Shown: piece after piece, positions 24,307 through 34,070 of the stretch | Numbering within the stretch: the first letter of the stretch is position 1 | Layout of the letters: every line of letters starts with the position of its first letter | From: Gemmatimonas aurantiaca T-27 | Lineage (GTDB): Bacteria; Gemmatimonadota; Gemmatimonadetes; Gemmatimonadales; Gemmatimonadaceae | Direction of reading: 5' to 3' | Assembly: GCF_000010305.1 (NCBI RefSeq) | Contig: NC_012489.1 | Coordinates: forward strand, 930,001-994,000 | DNA: 64,000 nt | Translations under genes and position numbers: made by a program | Notes under the pieces: model-generated | Database searches by the model: none | The model's input: the letters and a program-made list of their open reading frames with translations, nothing else | Told to the model about the DNA's origin: nothing

Positions 24307-24488
24307 CGGGTCACCCTCGGGAATGGGACCGAAGTCTGTGGGCGGCCGCACGATTGCCCGCCCACTTCCAATTCTACGTCGCGACCGGTGAGAAGGCTCC
24401 CGGTGCGAACGGGAAAAGATGCGGGCTCTGGTGTGAGGGGATTCGGCGCCGCGTTGCGCGTGTCGGATATCACCTTCTGCGCCGACTC

Positions 24489-27400
24489 ATGATCGAATCC
24501 ACTGCTCGCCTGTTGCGCCTGACCGTCATCTGCTCTCTCTGCGTGCTCAACGCGTGCGGTGGCGGTGACACATCGTCCGGCGGAACACCTACGGTGCCTG
24601 TCACGCCGACCACACCCAATCCTCCGGCGACGAATGTCCCGGCATCGGTTGCCATCGTGGCTGGTGATGCCCAGTCCGGTGAAACAGGAGCGCGTCTGCC
24701 CAATCCGTTGTCGGTACTGGTGCGCAACAACGCGGGGACGCCCATCGCAGGTGTCGCGGTGGAATTCAGCATCGATTCCGGCGGTGGTTCACTCAGCAGC
24801 ACGGCGGCCACCACGACCGCCGAAGGCATTGCCACCAGCGGCATGTGGACGCTTGGCGCGGTGGGCAACAATGTCGTCGTCGCGCGGGTAGCCTCGTTGC
24901 CGGTGGTGCGCTTTCACAGCATTGCTGTGGGGCCCGCAGTGCGCACACTGGTTGATCGCACGACCGTGCCGGCCAGCGGAGGCATCATCACCTATCGCAA
25001 GCCGGGCGACCCACTGGATGGCCTCACGGTCACGATCCCAGCGCAATCGTATGCCACGGCGACGGCGTGGACCATCACCGCCGATTCCGTGACACGTCCT
25101 ACGCTACCGGCTGGTTTTGTCCAGGTGGGGCCCACACTCACCGTGGACAATGGCGCCGCACACGCGGACAGCGTGATGTCGTTGTCGATGCCGACATCGG
25201 CTGGCGGTGATGACGCCGTGGCGCCGTTTTATTTCGATGCCGCGACCGGCTACCTCGAACCCATTCCCATCGTGGAGCGCAGTGCAGGCACCGTGGGACT
25301 CGCCACGCGGCACTTCTCACGGGACTTGCTGGCGCTGCCTGGTGTGGATCCAGGTGTCAGCGCCGCCCGCAGCGCGCTGATGGCCGGTGGTGTGGCGTTG
25401 CGCGCCTTCGGGGCCGTGAAGGTGGTGTGGATCAAGACACCACGTGCTCAGCTCGCGGGCACCTTCACGTCGGGTTTCACCGCTGGACAGGACAACTGGG
25501 AGTTCGAGAATCGCGGCCACTTTGCGGCCCCTCGCGGAAGCTGCGAAGGCATGAGCATCACCGCGCTGCACTACTGGTACTTCCTCAAGCGCAATGGTGC
25601 GCCATCGCTGTACCACCGTTTCGACAAGTCCCTCACCGATCTGCTCGACAACGTGCAGGGGCAGCGATACGCCGCGGCGGTGCAGGCCGACTACCTCGCC
25701 TATGCCTCCGCGCATGGCGATCAGGTCGAAAAACTCATCACGCAGGCGACACAACGCGGCACCAAGCTCGAAGAGCTCACGCCGAGCTGGATCGTGCTCA
25801 CACTCAAGCTGCTCAAGCAGCCGGTGCTGATTGGTCTGCTCTCCGGCAGCGGCGGCCACGCAGTCATTGCCACGGCGGCCACCTACGATCCGGGCACAGC
25901 GATCACCACCGTGACATTTGTCGATCCCAACCTCCCCACGCAGGCCCGCACGATGCGCTTTCAGGGAGGGACGCTGATGCCAGTGGCCCTCTCGACAAAA
26001 GCCAATGATCCCCAGATCTCGTTCACCCGTGCCTACGCGATCGCCGTCTCAGCCGAGCTGCCGCTGGCCGATATCTCCAAGCGATGGGCCGAATTCCAGA
26101 AGCAGCAGGCAGGAGCTGGTCTGTATCCCGCCAACTATCGCGCCGAGTATTTCAATCCGCTGACGGAAAGCTGGGAGCGTCTCACCGATACCGTGCGGAC
26201 CACCAGTGAGCGATTGCCACTTCGGCACATCTGCCCATCGTGCAAGGCGCCCACCCGCGGAGGAGTGGCCAACGAACATCCGCTCAAGCTCTGGGATGGT
26301 GGTGGAACGGCGGGTGTGCCGCAGAGCTACGTGGAGAACGAACCCGGCGTCGAGTCGTACTATGCCGAGCTCGAGGCCTATACCGACATCGATCCCACCC
26401 GCTCCTCACAACTCGACGCCAAGCGGTTCACGGTGGTCTACAGCCCTGTTGAACTGATTGCGCCAACCACCAGCGCGTTGGTGGGAACACCGGAAACCTG
26501 GCGCATCAATGCCGGCGCACTCGCCACCCCCGGCGTCACCTACACCTGGAAGACCAGTGATGGAGCGCCCGACGTCACCACAACCACCACGTCGTTCACT
26601 TTCACGCCGAAGCAGCCCGGTGAGACCACGATCTCGGTGCTGATGAAGGACGCCAACGGTGTGCTCATCGCCAAGCCTGCCAGTGTGCGCGTGGTCGGCC
26701 TTCGCCTCACCCTGACACCAGCGGCCGGCATCCTCTCGCGGAACACGCCGGTGACGTTTGTATTGTCGTCACCCGACTATCCCCTGTCGTCGCTCCGGAA
26801 CAAGCGGTTCTCGTGGTTCATGGCCACGCCGGATGGAGCCGTCGAGGAATACACCGATGTCCCCACACTGACTCGCACGTTCATCGGCCGCGGACCGGTG
26901 ACCGTCAACGTGCACGCCTACACCTTCGGTGTCGACTCCATCGATGTGCCGCTCGGCAAGGTGCTCGATCAGCAGTACACCGTCAGTGAGATCCTGCCCA
27001 CATGGAAATTCACATCATTCACGGTGCAGGTGGACAAATCGGGCCCCAATCCCTGGCTGAATAATCCGTCCATTGGCAGCACCACCCACTTCACGCGGCC
27101 GGAACAACTCTGGGTTGAGATCCAGAATGGTGTGAAGCGCGGTGGCTTTCTGTTTCTCGAGCGCGATTCGACGTTTGGCACGCAGAACCGTGCGGCTACG
27201 CTCAAACGACGTGGCATCTACTTCGTTGACACCGATCAGCCACTGCTTTCTGCCGACGATGTGGTGCGTTATCTCGACATGCCGCAGCTCGGGACCACGC
27301 TCAACACGAGCAGCCTCCCGCAGGTGCGCGCCAACTGGTTTGCCAATCCGGTCATGCCTTTCCGCGCAGCCGATGCTGCAGATCTGAGTGAGAGCTACAC

Positions 27401-27659
27401 CCTCAGCGGCACCATTGCCGGAGGGAGTCTGATCAGCACCACATGGAACTGGCAGTTCAGCACCTTCAAAGGAAATGGGCTGACATTGTGGTTCCCCTTC
27501 GAGACACGACAGATCCACGTGACGTTTGGTGCGACGACGGCCACGGGAACCATCACCGTGATCAGCCGCGATTTTGATCACTCGCTCGAGGTGTTGCCAC
27601 GTCCGGAAACCAAACGCTGGACGATCACCGCGCGGTTCACGGCCGAACGTGTGAAATAG
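24489..27659 (+). CDS. Large lipoprotein with Ig-like domains and a possible papain-like cysteine peptidase domain
   Basis: A protein of 1056 residues. The N-terminus ends in CVLNACGGG, a lipobox-type cysteine, followed by a Thr/Pro-rich linker. An Ig-like (invasin-type) domain follows (SVLVRNNAGTPIAGVAVEFSI). The middle holds GSCEGMSITALHYWYFL, then GGHAVIATA, then FVDPNLP. That Cys ... His ... Asp/Asn order is that of papain-like and C39-like peptidase folds. Further Ig-like beta regions fill the C-terminal half. ATG at 24489 gives the lipoprotein signal; the frame from 24354 does not. The substrate and whether it is active are unknown. Confidence 0.7.
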   Translation: MIESTARLLRLTVICSLCVLNACGGGDTSSGGTPTVPVTPTTPNPPATNVPASVAIVAGDAQSGETGARLPNPLSVLVRNNAGTPIAGVAVEFSIDSGGGSLSSTAATTTAEGIATSGMWTLGAVGNNVVVARVASLPVVRFHSIAVGPAVRTLVDRTTVPASGGIITYRKPGDPLDGLTVTIPAQSYATATAWTITADSVTRPTLPAGFVQVGPTLTVDNGAAHADSVMSLSMPTSAGGDDAVAPFYFDAATGYLEPIPIVERSAGTVGLATRHFSRDLLALPGVDPGVSAARSALMAGGVALRAFGAVKVVWIKTPRAQLAGTFTSGFTAGQDNWEFENRGHFAAPRGSCEGMSITALHYWYFLKRNGAPSLYHRFDKSLTDLLDNVQGQRYAAAVQADYLAYASAHGDQVEKLITQATQRGTKLEELTPSWIVLTLKLLKQPVLIGLLSGSGGHAVIATAATYDPGTAITTVTFVDPNLPTQARTMRFQGGTLMPVALSTKANDPQISFTRAYAIAVSAELPLADISKRWAEFQKQQAGAGLYPANYRAEYFNPLTESWERLTDTVRTTSERLPLRHICPSCKAPTRGGVANEHPLKLWDGGGTAGVPQSYVENEPGVESYYAELEAYTDIDPTRSSQLDAKRFTVVYSPVELIAPTTSALVGTPETWRINAGALATPGVTYTWKTSDGAPDVTTTTTSFTFTPKQPGETTISVLMKDANGVLIAKPASVRVVGLRLTLTPAAGILSRNTPVTFVLSSPDYPLSSLRNKRFSWFMATPDGAVEEYTDVPTLTRTFIGRGPVTVNVHAYTFGVDSIDVPLGKVLDQQYTVSEILPTWKFTSFTVQVDKSGPNPWLNNPSIGSTTHFTRPEQLWVEIQNGVKRGGFLFLERDSTFGTQNRAATLKRRGIYFVDTDQPLLSADDVVRYLDMPQLGTTLNTSSLPQVRANWFANPVMPFRAADAADLSESYTLSGTIAGGSLISTTWNWQFSTFKGNGLTLWFPFETRQIHVTFGATTATGTITVISRDFDHSLEVLPRPETKRWTITARFTAERVK

Positions 27660-27812: not shown

Positions 27813-27841
27813 TTGACAGGCTTCAACTACAGGTGTAAAAC
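27813..27841 (+). promoter_or_regulatory. Promoter of the blaI-type operon
   Basis: A perfect TTGACA lies at 27813-27818. TAAAAC at 27836-27841, 17 bases on, is the likely -10 and overlaps both operator boxes, so repressor binding would block RNA polymerase. Confidence 0.6.
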
Positions 27842-27853
27842 TACACTTGTAGT
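27828..27853 (+). promoter_or_regulatory. Two BlaI/CopY-type operator boxes
   Basis: Two copies of TACA-NN-TGTA occur 4 bases apart: TACAGGTGTA at 27828-27837 and TACACTTGTA at 27842-27851. The second extends to a 14-base perfect dyad, ACTACACTTGTAGT, at 27840-27853. This is the core recognised by CopY/BlaI/MecI dimers. The BlaI-type gene starts at 27870. Confidence 0.75.
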
Positions 27854-27869
27854 AATAACCGGAGCCTTC

Positions 27870-28259
27870 ATGTCTGAGCAGCACAGTTTCACCGCCCTCC
27901 AACTGGCTATCCTGCGCGTCCTCTGGGAGCGCGGCGAAGCTACCGTCGTCGAGATCTGGGAAGCGCTGCATGAGGAGCGTGGTCTCGCCCAGACCACCCT
28001 CGCCACCATGCTGTCGCGCCTCGAAAAGCGTGGGGCCGTGAGTCATCGCACCAGCGCCCGGCAGTTCGTCTACCGTGCCGTGGTCAGCGAAGACGCCGCC
28101 CGCCACTCGATGGTCAGTGAGCTCACCACCCGGCTGTTCGAGGGTGATGTGCCGTCGCTGGTGAGTCATTTGCTCACTGCACAGGACATCAGCCCCGGTG
28201 ACCGTGAGCGGATCCGCGCCATGCTCGATGCTGCTGCCCCCAAGCCGGAGTCCCAGTAA
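27870..28259 (+). CDS. BlaI/MecI/CopY family transcriptional repressor
   Basis: A winged-helix repressor of 129 residues. FTALQLAILRVLWERGEATVVEIWEAL and TTLATMLSRLEKRGAVSHR are the recognition-helix pattern of the family, and the C-terminal helices form the dimer. In BlaI/MecI systems the repressor is cleaved or released when a membrane M56 peptidase senses a signal. ATG at 27870 follows CCGGAG and is preferred to 27783, which would read through the operators. The stop overlaps the ATG of the M56 gene by one base. Self-repression is likely given the operator boxes. Confidence 0.92.
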   Translation: MSEQHSFTALQLAILRVLWERGEATVVEIWEALHEERGLAQTTLATMLSRLEKRGAVSHRTSARQFVYRAVVSEDAARHSMVSELTTRLFEGDVPSLVSHLLTAQDISPGDRERIRAMLDAAAPKPESQ

Positions 28260-30241
28260 TGGAAGCGATGACGCGGACAGCCCTCGCGTGGCTGCTGACC
28301 TACGCCATTCACAGCACCGTACTGCTGGCTCTCGCCTGGTTGCTCTCGCGATGGGGGCGGCTGTCGATGCATACGCTCGACTTCATCTGGAAGCTCGCGC
28401 TCGTCGGTGGACTGCTCACGTCCACTCTGCAATTGGGCTTCAATGTGCGACCCTTCGGATCGTTCGCATTGGAAGGCGCACGCCTCCCCGTCGCATCGCT
28501 GGTGGACCGATCTTCGTCGATCGTTCCGGCGGCAGGATCGTCACACGAGCAGGCCAAAGAGCACGAGCCCGTCGTGAGCGGATCTACCGCCATGGCCCCT
28601 GCGACACCGCTTGTCGCCGCGGCGGCGACGCCGACTCCCGCAGGATCCCGTCGAGTCGGGATCGAACTGCTGCTCTTCGCGGCGTGGGCGGTGGTGGCAC
28701 TCGTGCTTTCGCTGGTGTACGTGGCTCGGCGTCTGATGTTGGTGGGTCGTCTCGCCAATCGGCAGCACATCACCGAGGGCAGCTTGCCGGTGATGCTCGA
28801 CGCGTTGCGTCGTGCGGTGGGGTTCCGTTCACATGTGGCGCTCACGTCGGTGAACACGATCTCGAGTCCGGTGGCACTTGGACTGCATGAGATCTGTGTG
28901 CCCGAGGCGGCGTTGACGGAGCTCACGTCGGACGAGCAACGTGGACTGCTCGCACACGAACTCGCACATCTTGCCCGCCGCGATCCAGTGTGGCTGGACG
29001 TGGCGTCCCTCATCGAGCGGGTGTTCTTCTTTCAGCCGCTCAATCGTCTGGCGCGCCAGGAAATCCAGCGCAACGCGGAGTTCCTGTGCGACGACTGGGC
29101 TGCCGAGCGCACCGGAAACGGCCTTCCACTGGCCCACTGCCTGGCCCGTGTGGCCGAGTGGATCGAGGCATCGCCGGTCGGAGTGCCGGTGGCGGGCATG
29201 GCAGAGCAGCGTTCACTGTTGGTGACACGCATTGCGCGCCTCATCGAAGGACGCCGTGCCGAAGGACGCCGCGCCAGCTCGCCCCTGTCGCGGGTGCTCA
29301 CCATCGCCACGGCCACGGTACTGCTTTCCGCGGTGGTGGCCGCAGCACCCGGCGTGCGGCGTACCCACGGACCTGTTTCATCGAGCGCCAGCATCGGGTC
29401 GACGACCGACGAGCCAACGGTGCGCCTCAGTGCCGCGCTGGACGAGGCCGACGAAGAGCGTCACCAGGATCGCCGCGAACCAACCGACGCCGATGATCCG
29501 GCCGTCATCACCGCGCTCATTGCCCGCCTCAAGGATGCTGATGCCAGCGTGCGCCGCGCCGCAGCGGGTTCACTGGGCAACCTGCGCAGCAAGGCCGCTG
29601 TGCCGGCGCTCATCGCGGCCATTGATGATGCGAACAAGGATGTCCGGGTGGCCGTCTGTGAAGCGCTCGGTCATATCGGGGATGCTCGTGCCGTGCCATC
29701 CCTGACACGGTTGCTCACCGATGCCTCACCGGAAGTTCGGCAGCACGCCCTCGATGCGCTCGACGATTTTGCCGAAGAGCTCACGGTGCAACAGATCCTT
29801 CCGAGCACGCAGGATGCTCGCGCAGAAACGCGCGCCAAGGCCGCTGAACTGCTCGGAGAAATCGGTGATCGTGATGCGATCCCCACGTTGCAGCGGTTGC
29901 TGAGCGATGCCTCCGAGGACGTACGATCGACTGCGCTGGAATCGCTGTGTGAACTCAAGGCCGTGTTGAGCGCCCCGCAAATTGCCGCGCTGTTGAGCGA
30001 TGCATCGGCCGATGTGCGGCACGCCGCGCTCGAATATGTGAAAGAACAGCCCACCCTCGGCAACGTAGCCACCATCCGGAAGATGGTGAGCGATGCCGAC
30101 GAGCATGTGCGGGAAGCGGCCATCGAAGCACTGGCCGAACTGCGCAGCCCGGAAGCGCGGACCGCGTTGCGTGAGGCGCTCAACTCCAGCGATCCCGCCG
30201 TACGTCGTCGGGCCGCCGAAGCCCTGGGAGAACGGCCATGA
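28259..30241 (+). CDS. BlaR1/M56-type membrane metallopeptidase with C-terminal HEAT repeats
   Basis: A protein of 660 residues. The N-terminus has membrane helices (LLTYAIHSTVLLALAWLLSR, and a second near FIWKLALVGGLLTS) and a third helix (IELLLFAAWAVVALVLSLVYVARRL). The peptidase motif is HELAH with H233, E234 and H237, and a distal glutamate is likely in NAEFLCDDWA. After another helix (VLTIATATVLLSAVVAAAP), residues of about 430-660 form HEAT-like repeats (VRRAAAGSLGNLRSKAAVPALIAAI and similar), which BlaR1 lacks. It lies directly behind the repressor and probably inactivates it in response to an external signal; the signal is unknown. Confidence 0.88.
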   Translation: MEAMTRTALAWLLTYAIHSTVLLALAWLLSRWGRLSMHTLDFIWKLALVGGLLTSTLQLGFNVRPFGSFALEGARLPVASLVDRSSSIVPAAGSSHEQAKEHEPVVSGSTAMAPATPLVAAAATPTPAGSRRVGIELLLFAAWAVVALVLSLVYVARRLMLVGRLANRQHITEGSLPVMLDALRRAVGFRSHVALTSVNTISSPVALGLHEICVPEAALTELTSDEQRGLLAHELAHLARRDPVWLDVASLIERVFFFQPLNRLARQEIQRNAEFLCDDWAAERTGNGLPLAHCLARVAEWIEASPVGVPVAGMAEQRSLLVTRIARLIEGRRAEGRRASSPLSRVLTIATATVLLSAVVAAAPGVRRTHGPVSSSASIGSTTDEPTVRLSAALDEADEERHQDRREPTDADDPAVITALIARLKDADASVRRAAAGSLGNLRSKAAVPALIAAIDDANKDVRVAVCEALGHIGDARAVPSLTRLLTDASPEVRQHALDALDDFAEELTVQQILPSTQDARAETRAKAAELLGEIGDRDAIPTLQRLLSDASEDVRSTALESLCELKAVLSAPQIAALLSDASADVRHAALEYVKEQPTLGNVATIRKMVSDADEHVREAAIEALAELRSPEARTALREALNSSDPAVRRRAAEALGERP

Positions 30242-31317
30242 GCCCGGTGCGCGTAGGACTTGCCGCCGCCGCGATTGCCGCGATGGGTTGGACCACGGTG
30301 AGCGCACTCGATCGTGTCACCATTCCGGCCAGCCTGCAGTCGTCTGGAATCGTGCGTGAGCAACACCCTGGGCCGGATTCACTGCGGGTCGCCTCGTTGC
30401 TCATCGCGCTCGACAAGGGAGACCCTCTCATCTGCGAAGTGTTTGCCGACCGTATGGGCAACTCCTGGTGGGGACGTGCCAGCCGAATCGGAGACTTTGG
30501 CGACGCGGCTGCCAACCAGCGTGCGGCGCAGGATTCGCTCAGTGGACGTATCGAACATGCGGGCACGATCCAACTGCTCACGGCCTCACTGTCTCATGGC
30601 AACCCGTGTGTGCGTCGTGTCGCCGCCCGATGGTTGGGGCGGAGCAGTGTGGCGACCTCGCGTCTGACTGGACTGCTGGATGATCCCTCCGCCACCGTGC
30701 GTGAGGCTGCCGCGTATGCCATTGGCTCCGGCGAGAAGCGCCAGACCCGGGTCGCGCTGGAAGCCATGTTGGCTCGGCGCGGAGGCGCGGAGGCGGCGAT
30801 GGCCGCCTGGGCGCTTGCCGAAGAAGATGATTCGGCGTCGGTGCCAGCGCTCCAGCGTGCTTTGCGTCATGCCGACGCGCCCGTGCGCCGCGCTGCGGCC
30901 TACGCGTTGGGTGAGATCGCGGATCTGCGTGCGCTGGATGCGCTCAGCGCAGCGCTGCGTGATGCCGACGCAGAGGTTCGTTATGCGTCGGCCCACGCCA
31001 TTGGTGAGCTGGATGATCTCGAGCATCCGCCAGCAGCGCTGCTGGAGGCGTGCCGGTCGAGCGACCGGAAGCTGGCCCGCATTGCCGCCATGACGGTCGC
31101 TGAACTGCACGATCCGGCTACGCTCGATGTGCTCATTGCGCTGGCCGATATGGACGACCGCGATGTACGTGTGCACGTGGCCGAAGCGCTTGGCGAGATC
31201 GGCTCGCTCAAGGCCAACGCGCCACTGCTGCGGATGCTGCAGGACCAGGACGCCGAAGTCCGGCGGGCCGCCGCCGAAGCGCTTGGTGAACTGCGCGAGA
31301 ACGGCTCGCGCGACTAA
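30238..31317 (+). CDS. Exported HEAT-repeat protein
   Basis: A protein of 359 residues. A short hydrophobic N-terminus (VGLAAAAIAAMGWTTVSA) suggests export or anchoring. Six or more HEAT-type repeats follow (VRRVAARWLGRSSV, VREAAAYAIGSG, VRRAAAYALGEIADLRALDAL, VRYASAHAIGELDD). They are related in pattern to the repeats at the end of the preceding M56 protein. The ATG overlaps the M56 stop by four bases (ATGA), so translation is coupled. It may be a partner of the M56 sensor. No enzymatic motif is seen. Confidence 0.85.
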   Translation: MSPVRVGLAAAAIAAMGWTTVSALDRVTIPASLQSSGIVREQHPGPDSLRVASLLIALDKGDPLICEVFADRMGNSWWGRASRIGDFGDAAANQRAAQDSLSGRIEHAGTIQLLTASLSHGNPCVRRVAARWLGRSSVATSRLTGLLDDPSATVREAAAYAIGSGEKRQTRVALEAMLARRGGAEAAMAAWALAEEDDSASVPALQRALRHADAPVRRAAAYALGEIADLRALDALSAALRDADAEVRYASAHAIGELDDLEHPPAALLEACRSSDRKLARIAAMTVAELHDPATLDVLIALADMDDRDVRVHVAEALGEIGSLKANAPLLRMLQDQDAEVRRAAAEALGELRENGSRD

Positions 31318-31385: not shown

Positions 31386-34070
31386 ATGTCTGCATTGTTT
31401 CCCCGCGCGACGGTACTCGGCGTCGCGTTGATGCTCGTCGCGCTCGATCGTACGGATGCGCAGCCCGCACTTGGCAGTGGCACGCCGGGCAGCAGCAACT
31501 CCACGCCGTTCCAGCGACTCTTGGTGGGGGAGCCTGGTCGCGCGGAGGCCACCCGTACCACCGGGTCCATTCACCTCGACGGGCGGCTGGACGAGGCGGC
31601 CTGGCAGACGGCGCGTTATGTCAGCGGGTTGATTCAACGCGAGCCAGCGGAAGGATCTCCGGAGAGCGACTCGACGCTCGTGACTTTTGTGTACGACAAT
31701 CAGGCGTTGTACATCGGGGCACGCATGATGAGCAGCCATCCCGAGAGTATCCGGCCGCTGGTGGCCCGTCGCGACAAGGAAGGGAGTGCCGAGCAACTGA
31801 TTCTGTCATTTGATACGTTTGGCGATCGGCGTACCGCCTATACGTTTTCGGTGACCTCCGGTGGGGTGCGTGTCGATTACTACCACGGCTCGGATTTCGA
31901 GAACTCGCGTGACTACACTTTCGATCCGGTGTGGGAAGTGCGCACCACCGTTGATGCGAAGGGATGGACCGCCGAAATGCGCATCCCCTTCTCGCAGTTG
32001 CGCTTCAGTACAGCCGACGAACAGAACTGGGGCGTGAATATTGTGCGCCTGGTACCGGACCGGAACGAGTCCGACTACTGGATGCTGATCAAGCGCAACG
32101 AGACCGGATGGTCCTCACGCATGGGACAACTCACCGGCTTGCGTGGGTTGCGTGCGCGTCAGCGGCTCGAAGTGTTGCCGTATGTGGCGAGTGATACACG
32201 AGCCAAGAGCACCGTGAATCCCGCCAATCCGTACGACGCGAAGAACCGGAGCGAAGTCCGTGCTGGCGGTGACGTGAAAATCGGCCTCGGGCCCAATGCC
32301 ACACTGGAGGCTACCATCAATCCTGACTTCGGTCAGGTGGAAGCCGACCCGGCAGTGGTGAATCTGTCGGCATTCGAGGTGTTCTTCGATGAACGGCGAC
32401 CCTTCTTTACCGAAGGCACGCAGTTGCTGAACGCGCGTGGCAATTTCTATTCGCGCCGTATCGGTGCGCCGCCTCCACTCAACCCCGGCGGCACCTACGC
32501 CGACGTCCCGCACAACACCACCATTCTGGGCGCGGCGAAGGTGTCTGGGCGTTTGCCGTCCAAGTTGTCCTTCGCTGGGCTGACGGCCCTGAGCGCGCAG
32601 GAGAATGCGCGCGTCTTCAATGCCGCGCAACGCACCGAAACGACCGCCGAAGTCGCGCCTCGCACCTTGTACGGTGTGGGCGTCGTGCAGCAGGAATTCG
32701 GCAAGGATGGATCGACGGCCTATGCCATGTTCACAGCCGTGGAGCGAGATCTCACCAACGGCAGCCAGGCGGAGCGGGTGCTGGCCCAGCGGGCCTACAC
32801 GGGACTTGCGGATACACGGCTGCGATGGGCCGGCGGTGGGTATGACGCGAGTGCTTTCATCGGATTCAGTCACATCGCCGGTGACTCTCTGGCCATGCTC
32901 GCCCAACAGCGATCGAGTCGGCGGTTCTTCCAGCGCCCGGACGCAGGGTACGTGCGCGTGGATCCCAGTCTCACATCGATGAACGGCTATTTCGCCGGCA
33001 TCAATCACAGCAAGCTCAGTGGGTCATGGCTGTGGGATCTCGATTTCTCGGCAGAGTCGCCGGGGTATGAAATCAACGATGTCGGTCGTCTCGGTGGCAC
33101 CGATGACATCAGTCAGTCGTCCAATCTGCGGTATCGCCAGACGAAGCGTGGTCAGTACTTCCACAACTGGGATGTGGGCGTCTCGCAGTTCGCCGGTTGG
33201 AATTTCGGCGGTGTGACCACGTACAATGGCTTCGAACTGTATAGCAACCAGACGCTGAAGAACTTCCTGCGGTCCTGGGTGGAACTCGGGGTGAATCTTC
33301 CTGCGACATCCGATGACCTGACGCGTGGTGGTCCGCTGATGCAGGTCTATGGCAGTCAGTCGCTCGGCGCTGGCATTTCGAGTCGCTCCGGTGCCCGGAC
33401 GAGTTGGTCGGCGTCGGCCGGCGCCTCCACGTCGAAGGATGGCAGCTACACGTTTGACATGGACGGTGCACTCACCTTGCGTCCCGGTACACGCGTGGAA
33501 CTCTCACTGACACCATCGTTCAGTCAGAGTGAAAATGCGCGCCAGTATGTCGCGACCCGGGCCAACGGCACGGCGGCCACCTTTGGTTCACGCTACGTCT
33601 TTGCCCATGTGGACCAGGTGCAGTACAGCCTGCGCTTCCGTCTCAACTTTGCGCTCACACCAAACCTCACCTTCGAGACCTACGCCGAACCGTTTGCCGC
33701 CAGCGGACGGTATCATGAATACGGTGAACTCGGAGCCCGACTCGATCGTGACTTGCGCACCTACGGCACGAATGGCACGACCATCTCGGCACCCGACAGC
33801 ACCGGCACACGGGTCGTGACGGATGGCGCAACGACCTTCACGCTGGGCAACAGCGACTTCAACCTGCGCTCGTTCCGCAGCAATGCCGTGATGCGTTGGG
33901 AATGGCGGCCGGGGTGCACACTTTTTGTGGTGTGGCAACAAGACCGATCAGCGCAGCGCACCCGTGGTCTCACCGTACGACCCGGCGCGCTCTGGGATGC
34001 CCTGAGTGCCGATGGCACACAGGTGCTCGCGCTCAAGGCGAGTTACTGGCTGCCACTCTCATTCCGGTGA
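31386..34070 (+). CDS. DUF5916 outer-membrane protein with CBM9-like N-terminus
   Basis: A protein of 894 residues. A signal peptide is followed by SIHLDGRLDEAAWQTA, the start of a carbohydrate-binding CBM9-like domain, including YIGARM and SFDTFGDRRTAYTFSV. The long C-terminal region (VEADPAVVNLSAFEVFFDERRPFFTEG onward) is rich in alternating beta strands and ends with a Phe/Arg terminus, as in outer-membrane beta-barrels. Proteins of this layout are common in Bacteroidota and Gemmatimonadota, but their function is unknown. It begins 68 bases after the HEAT gene. Confidence 0.85.
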   Translation: MSALFPRATVLGVALMLVALDRTDAQPALGSGTPGSSNSTPFQRLLVGEPGRAEATRTTGSIHLDGRLDEAAWQTARYVSGLIQREPAEGSPESDSTLVTFVYDNQALYIGARMMSSHPESIRPLVARRDKEGSAEQLILSFDTFGDRRTAYTFSVTSGGVRVDYYHGSDFENSRDYTFDPVWEVRTTVDAKGWTAEMRIPFSQLRFSTADEQNWGVNIVRLVPDRNESDYWMLIKRNETGWSSRMGQLTGLRGLRARQRLEVLPYVASDTRAKSTVNPANPYDAKNRSEVRAGGDVKIGLGPNATLEATINPDFGQVEADPAVVNLSAFEVFFDERRPFFTEGTQLLNARGNFYSRRIGAPPPLNPGGTYADVPHNTTILGAAKVSGRLPSKLSFAGLTALSAQENARVFNAAQRTETTAEVAPRTLYGVGVVQQEFGKDGSTAYAMFTAVERDLTNGSQAERVLAQRAYTGLADTRLRWAGGGYDASAFIGFSHIAGDSLAMLAQQRSSRRFFQRPDAGYVRVDPSLTSMNGYFAGINHSKLSGSWLWDLDFSAESPGYEINDVGRLGGTDDISQSSNLRYRQTKRGQYFHNWDVGVSQFAGWNFGGVTTYNGFELYSNQTLKNFLRSWVELGVNLPATSDDLTRGGPLMQVYGSQSLGAGISSRSGARTSWSASAGASTSKDGSYTFDMDGALTLRPGTRVELSLTPSFSQSENARQYVATRANGTAATFGSRYVFAHVDQVQYSLRFRLNFALTPNLTFETYAEPFAASGRYHEYGELGARLDRDLRTYGTNGTTISAPDSTGTRVVTDGATTFTLGNSDFNLRSFRSNAVMRWEWRPGCTLFVVWQQDRSAQRTRGLTVRPGALWDALSADGTQVLALKASYWLPLSFR

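Follow-up and report, generated by a model that had tools for sequence, protein, structure and literature searches.

What does a BlaI-type repressor and M56 protease pair respond to when the protease carries no penicillin-binding sensor? The question is raised by three genes in the window analyzed here, a stretch of 64 kb comprising bases 930001-994000 of a genome that is a single contig of 4,636,964 bp. They stand in the order blaI, M56-HEAT, HEAT, all on the + strand, and a reading of the sequence bears out the initial annotation in that successive open reading frames overlap by 1 base (TAATG) and by 4 bases (ATGA). We favor, at a probability of roughly 60%, BlaR1-like proteolytic derepression in which the trigger is an envelope protein held by the HEAT ectodomain and the secreted HEAT protein serves as a partner or regulates by feedback.

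Setting and conservation of the module

The closest homologues come from Gemmatimonadaceae MAGs. All three proteins exceed the Pfam gathering scores of their families, Penicillinase_R for the first, Peptidase_M56 and HEAT for the second, and HEAT for the third. Among the neighboring genes scanned with Pfam there was no beta-lactamase or transpeptidase, in agreement with the earlier remark that no beta-lactamase or mecA-like gene is adjacent. Just upstream, at window positions 24354-27659, lies the gene of a large protein that looks secreted and matches Big_1 and PKD; a similar protein is likewise encoded upstream of the module at locus L024.

Close relatives of the M56 protein were found in 59 of 298 genomes in a search of the phylum at E 1e-20. 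For comparison we used 24 loci, made up of the fetched phylum regions and L024-L027, the window included; nearly all are from Gemmatimonadota, with one from a Myxococcaceae MAG and one Planctomycetota relative (L026). Peptidase_M56 is present in 24/24 of the proteins and HEAT in 23/24, the Planctomycetota protein being the exception. L026 is also the only locus without a downstream open reading frame at the position of the HEAT gene; in the others this frame mostly overlaps the M56 gene by 4 bases. The Planctomycetota MAG of L026 has sixteen M56 matches in one genome, and the M56 C-termini at L090, L092, and L088 (Planctomycetota MAG) appear by eye as propeller-like repeats, TPR-like, and long coiled segments.

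A HEAT solenoid in the place of the penicillin-binding domain

28259..30241, + strand: M56 metalloprotease of 660 aa, resembling BlaR1 and ending in a HEAT solenoid (Pfam, homologues, model)
28955..28969, + strand: zinc motif HELAH (aa 233-237); no homologue departs from HExxH
29078..29092, + strand: gluzincin motif ExxxD (E274-D278), invariant in homologues
29492..30235, + strand: HEAT solenoid (aa 412-659), predicted periplasmic (pLDDT mostly 92-98; HEAT_2; topology)

The sensor matches Peptidase_M56 (2.3e-19) and HEAT_2 (1e-46). With HEAT_2 scores of 157.6 bits for the sensor and 120.9 for the separate HEAT protein, against a gathering score of 27.7, and with a solenoid fold, both belong to the HEAT family. 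The motifs H233ExxH and E274xxxD are invariant in all 24 M56 sequences and make up the gluzincin signature of BlaR1/MecR1 sensors; the corresponding motifs of Staphylococcus aureus BlaR1 are H201EXXH and E242XXXD (PMC9834060). The M56 part also matches the BlaR1 structure 8exs (E 1e-4). In an AlphaFold2 model, long helices span residues 2-32, 37-60, 130-164, and 342-362, where BlaR1 has its four transmembrane helices, and the flanking charges (positive-inside bias) predict a protease that faces inward and a HEAT domain that faces outward. The predicted topology is thus that of BlaR1, four helices with both termini out. Because the gluzincin motifs and this predicted topology match BlaR1, the HEAT domain of the sensor should be periplasmic.

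No transpeptidase-type, penicillin-binding domain was found at the C-terminus of the sensor, where only HEAT-like families match, and its blaR1_generic score is 33.7 bits against a cut-off of 400. Pfam, homologues, and model therefore agree with the initial annotation that a HEAT domain stands in place of the BlaR1 sensor, and the presence of HEAT repeats in 23 of the 24 homologous M56 proteins argues against an assembly artefact. That the sensor detects something other than beta-lactams follows from its sequence as a reasonable expectation, with the ligand and protein binding by the HEAT domain as suppositions.

In fold searches, the solenoid models of both the sensor and the HEAT protein resemble artificial alphaRep binders; in the search with the sensor, the listed matches were filled by the HEAT part and were uninformative on the protease core. 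An alphaRep-like solenoid is a generic protein-binding HEAT fold, and since HEAT folds bind many kinds of partner, it does not name the ligand.

A specific family of apparently exported HEAT proteins

30238..31317, + strand: HEAT protein of 359 aa with a signal-like N-terminus, apparently exported (HEAT_2, 2.8e-35)
30433-30435, + strand: conserved Cys66 (partner alignment)
30607-30609, + strand: conserved Cys124 (partner alignment)

Judged from its alignment, the third gene product is a member of a specific family and not a generic HEAT protein. Most members have a signal-like N-terminus, and the family has a cap, GPDSARVA...DPxxCEL...NPCVRR, that holds Cys66 and Cys124. The two cap cysteines are found in 21/21 type A partners and in 19/21 and 18/21 type B partners. 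A disulfide may join them, as so conserved a cysteine pair would fit an exported protein with such a bond; in the model of the partner (P0003), the N-terminal cap has low confidence. The HEAT gene adjoins the M56 gene where the M56 protein itself has HEAT repeats, and no adjacent HEAT partner gene was seen in the HEAT-less M56 loci examined.

These observations bear on an alternative that we consider possible though unlikely, in which a small ligand or a piece of the cell wall is bound by the HEAT domain itself, and the secreted HEAT protein acts as an ordinary effector with no feedback role. The BlaR1 ectodomain does sense a small molecule (PMC9834060), and the HEAT gene of the second module described below has an operator of its own, as an effector would. 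However, HEAT and alphaRep-like solenoids are classical protein binders, and the finding of the HEAT partner only with HEAT-bearing sensors favors direct cooperation between the two.

Repressor and operator

27870..28259, + strand: BlaI/MecI-type repressor, 129 aa, no cysteine (Penicillinase_R, E 1e-30)
27813..27818, + strand: -35 element TTGACA (sequence reading; TTGAC conserved in homologous loci)
27836..27841, + strand: putative -10 element TAAAAC, 17 bp behind the -35 and overlapping box 1 (sequence reading)
27828..27837, + strand: operator box 1, TACAGGTGTA (exact match; footprint across loci)
27842..27851, + strand: operator box 2, TACACTTGTA (exact match; footprint across loci)

The repressor is a clear Penicillinase_R protein (106.9 bits against a gathering score of 22.6) and matches the MecI structure 1okr (E 1e-8). 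The scissile N101-F102 bond of MecI aligns to H100-L101, so that the module repressor has H-L instead of N-F; among its homologues L101 is invariant and H100 is conserved in at least 90%.

Both boxes are exact copies of TACANNTGTA, 14 bp apart, behind TTGACA; a consensus promoter scanner made no call at the putative -10. The chance expectation for such boxes in the 64-kb window is 0.06. Genome-wide there are 5 single TACANNTGTA sites, against 33 for a reversed control pattern. The initial annotation had proposed looking for the operator pair elsewhere, and the module pair proved to be its sole occurrence in the 4.64-Mb genome, even allowing 2 mismatches. We rejected a wider TACANNTGTA regulon: the three other single sites lack a second box, fall within or next to unrelated reading frames, and were put down to chance.

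Across the 24 loci the picture is consistent. At least one exact box occurs in 20/24 (shuffles: mean 0.04, maximum 1), and the best 24-base box pair averages 14.75/16, against 8.3 for shuffles. Two palindromes 14 bp apart are found in 24/24 loci, usually behind a -35 element, and TTGAC lies 10-15 bp upstream of box 1 in 22/24. Variation is concentrated in the central bases, the half-sites being almost unchanged, and certain base changes, as in TACGGCCGTA and TACGACCGTA, preserve the palindrome. Phylogenetic footprinting thus strongly supports the shared, self-regulated promoter with two operator boxes that had been proposed, and the boxes most probably form an autoregulatory operator overlapping the promoter. 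Putative palindromic TACA-TGTA operators at the gene's own promoter are also what one expects of a BlaI/MecI repressor.

With the BlaI-BlaR1 and MecI-MecR1 systems of Staphylococcus and Bacillus licheniformis, then, the module shares the repressor family, the TACA/TGTA promoter operators, the M56 gluzincin motifs, and four predicted transmembrane helices with the C-terminal domain outside. That the repressor and protease core and the operator type are the same could be taken to mean that the module, although it has no penicillin-binding domain of its own, reacts as BlaR1 does to beta-lactams, or to damage of the cell wall, by way of some indirect partner. Given a sensor that lacks the transpeptidase-type domain and the absence of any beta-lactamase or mecA-like gene nearby, we regard this as highly improbable. 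Copper regulation of the CopY kind is hardly credible and was rejected: CopY operators are TACANNTGTA (PMC7253601), CopY/CopR repressors share the superfamily and the 10-bp operator core, and CopY_TcrY gives a weak score (63 bits, below the cut-off of 122), but the module repressor contains no cysteine and hence no CXC metal motif, which makes copper sensing unlikely, each box fits 15/16 positions of RNYKACANNYGTMRNY, the operon contains no copper gene, and the repressor is paired with a membrane protease gene.

A second, diverged module in the same genome

A second series of BlaI, M56-HEAT, HEAT, and DUF5916 genes lies at about 1.1597-1.1665 Mb (locus L093, 1,158,000-1,165,500). Its repressor is only 27% identical to the window BlaI over the aligned part, and the module has no TACANNTGTA boxes. 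In some 20 related loci, one or two copies of another palindrome, GYTGAWWWWTCARC, stand before blaI instead, and most of these loci have it again between the M56-HEAT and HEAT genes, which makes the HEAT protein look like an output under regulation of its own. There are 4 occurrences of GYTGAWWWWTCARC genome-wide, against 0 for the reversed control: two before blaI, one near the start of the HEAT gene (L093), and one at 4,323,584. The last precedes the gene of a 239-aa protein (L154:1460-2243, about 4.3236 Mb), which has TTGAC together with operator boxes of the second-module kind upstream; the protein matches no Pfam family and is hydrophobic over a stretch close to the N-terminus. This gene is likely a distant target of the second BlaI.

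A single clade of HEAT-bearing M56 cores was rejected by an AU test (p-AU 9e-5), and the cysteine cap is common to the HEAT partners of both module types. As the M56 cores are not one clade and the partners share the cap, HEAT sensing has been joined to two protease-repressor lineages.

The same genome encodes two further M56 proteins beside BlaI genes, one ending in a TonB-receptor Plug domain (L094:1867-3396) and one in a TonB_C domain (L095:4096-5475). They share the BlaI/M56 gene pair with the module and differ in having other C-terminal domains, with neither a HEAT domain nor a HEAT partner gene.

DUF5916 genes behind the modules

31386..34070, + strand: DUF5916 protein, probably of the outer membrane; its gene may be the fourth of the operon (DUF5916, E 7.5e-59)

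A site scan found no terminator-like site before this gene, and it may be cotranscribed with the module. DUF5916 gives eight matches in the genome, two of them within one gene, for a total of seven genes. Of these, two come immediately after the M56-HEAT modules, one behind each and on the same strand, at 68 bases from the HEAT gene in the window and 15 bases in the second module. Given an estimated ~4000 genes, this is far above chance. A DUF5916 gene lies directly downstream on the same strand in the window, at L024 and L093, and at the type B loci L137, L138, L145, L146, and L147; elsewhere it is absent or convergent, and in most type A loci it is non-adjacent, so a core fourth gene was rejected as a general rule. 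Because adjacency is not universal, DUF5916 is probably a target in some lineages and no defining part of the module. A literature search found no description of DUF5916.

Model and implications

The module works like BlaI-BlaR1, the kind of switch by which Staphylococcus turns on its penicillin resistance, and yet is no BlaR1 system, lacking both the penicillin-binding sensor and the linked beta-lactam target gene; in their place stand a HEAT solenoid and a secreted HEAT partner. In the reading that we favor, signaling by a bound envelope protein, a BlaI dimer at rest would occupy the tandem pair of boxes, mask the promoter spacer and the -10, and repress its own operon. The M56 protein would cross the inner membrane four times, with the zinc protease in the cytoplasm and the HEAT solenoid in the periplasm. 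We imagine that an altered binding state of the solenoid would activate the protease, which would cleave BlaI, near H100-L101 as placed by the alignment with MecI. Once released, the operon would raise the amounts of the sensor and of the secreted HEAT protein, and probably that of DUF5916 as well. The HEAT protein may bind the sensor, its client, or both, closing a feedback loop. In the envelope-stress feedback of CpxA and CpxP, a regulated periplasmic protein is able to act back on the sensor. The likeness is an analogy only, as the proteins are unrelated and CpxA is a histidine kinase instead of a protease-repressor switch.

One can envision more specifically that the M56-HEAT protein and its two-cysteine partner form an undescribed Gemmatimonadota surveillance of the envelope, watching the folding or supply of an outer-membrane protein such as DUF5916, in two mutually insulated copies with different operators. 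We hold this to be speculative and rather doubtful.

A literature search found no description of M56-HEAT proteins or of their HEAT partner. The Plug and TonB_C proteins of the same genome show that M56 proteins exchange their C-terminal domains, and the principle is therefore not new. What is new here is the specific two-cysteine partner family, a second module with its own operator, DUF5916 after both modules, and the rejection of a single clade for the HEAT-bearing M56 cores.

The signal of the module is thus probably to be sought in the cell envelope and is unlikely to be penicillin. The protease-repressor switch of BlaR1 may, on this view, be a general chassis with an exchangeable outside sensor, and the module is a concrete and clearly delimited case in which to learn what sensors of this kind detect. 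Since one cell contains two modules whose operators differ, insulation and signal specificity could be tested directly.
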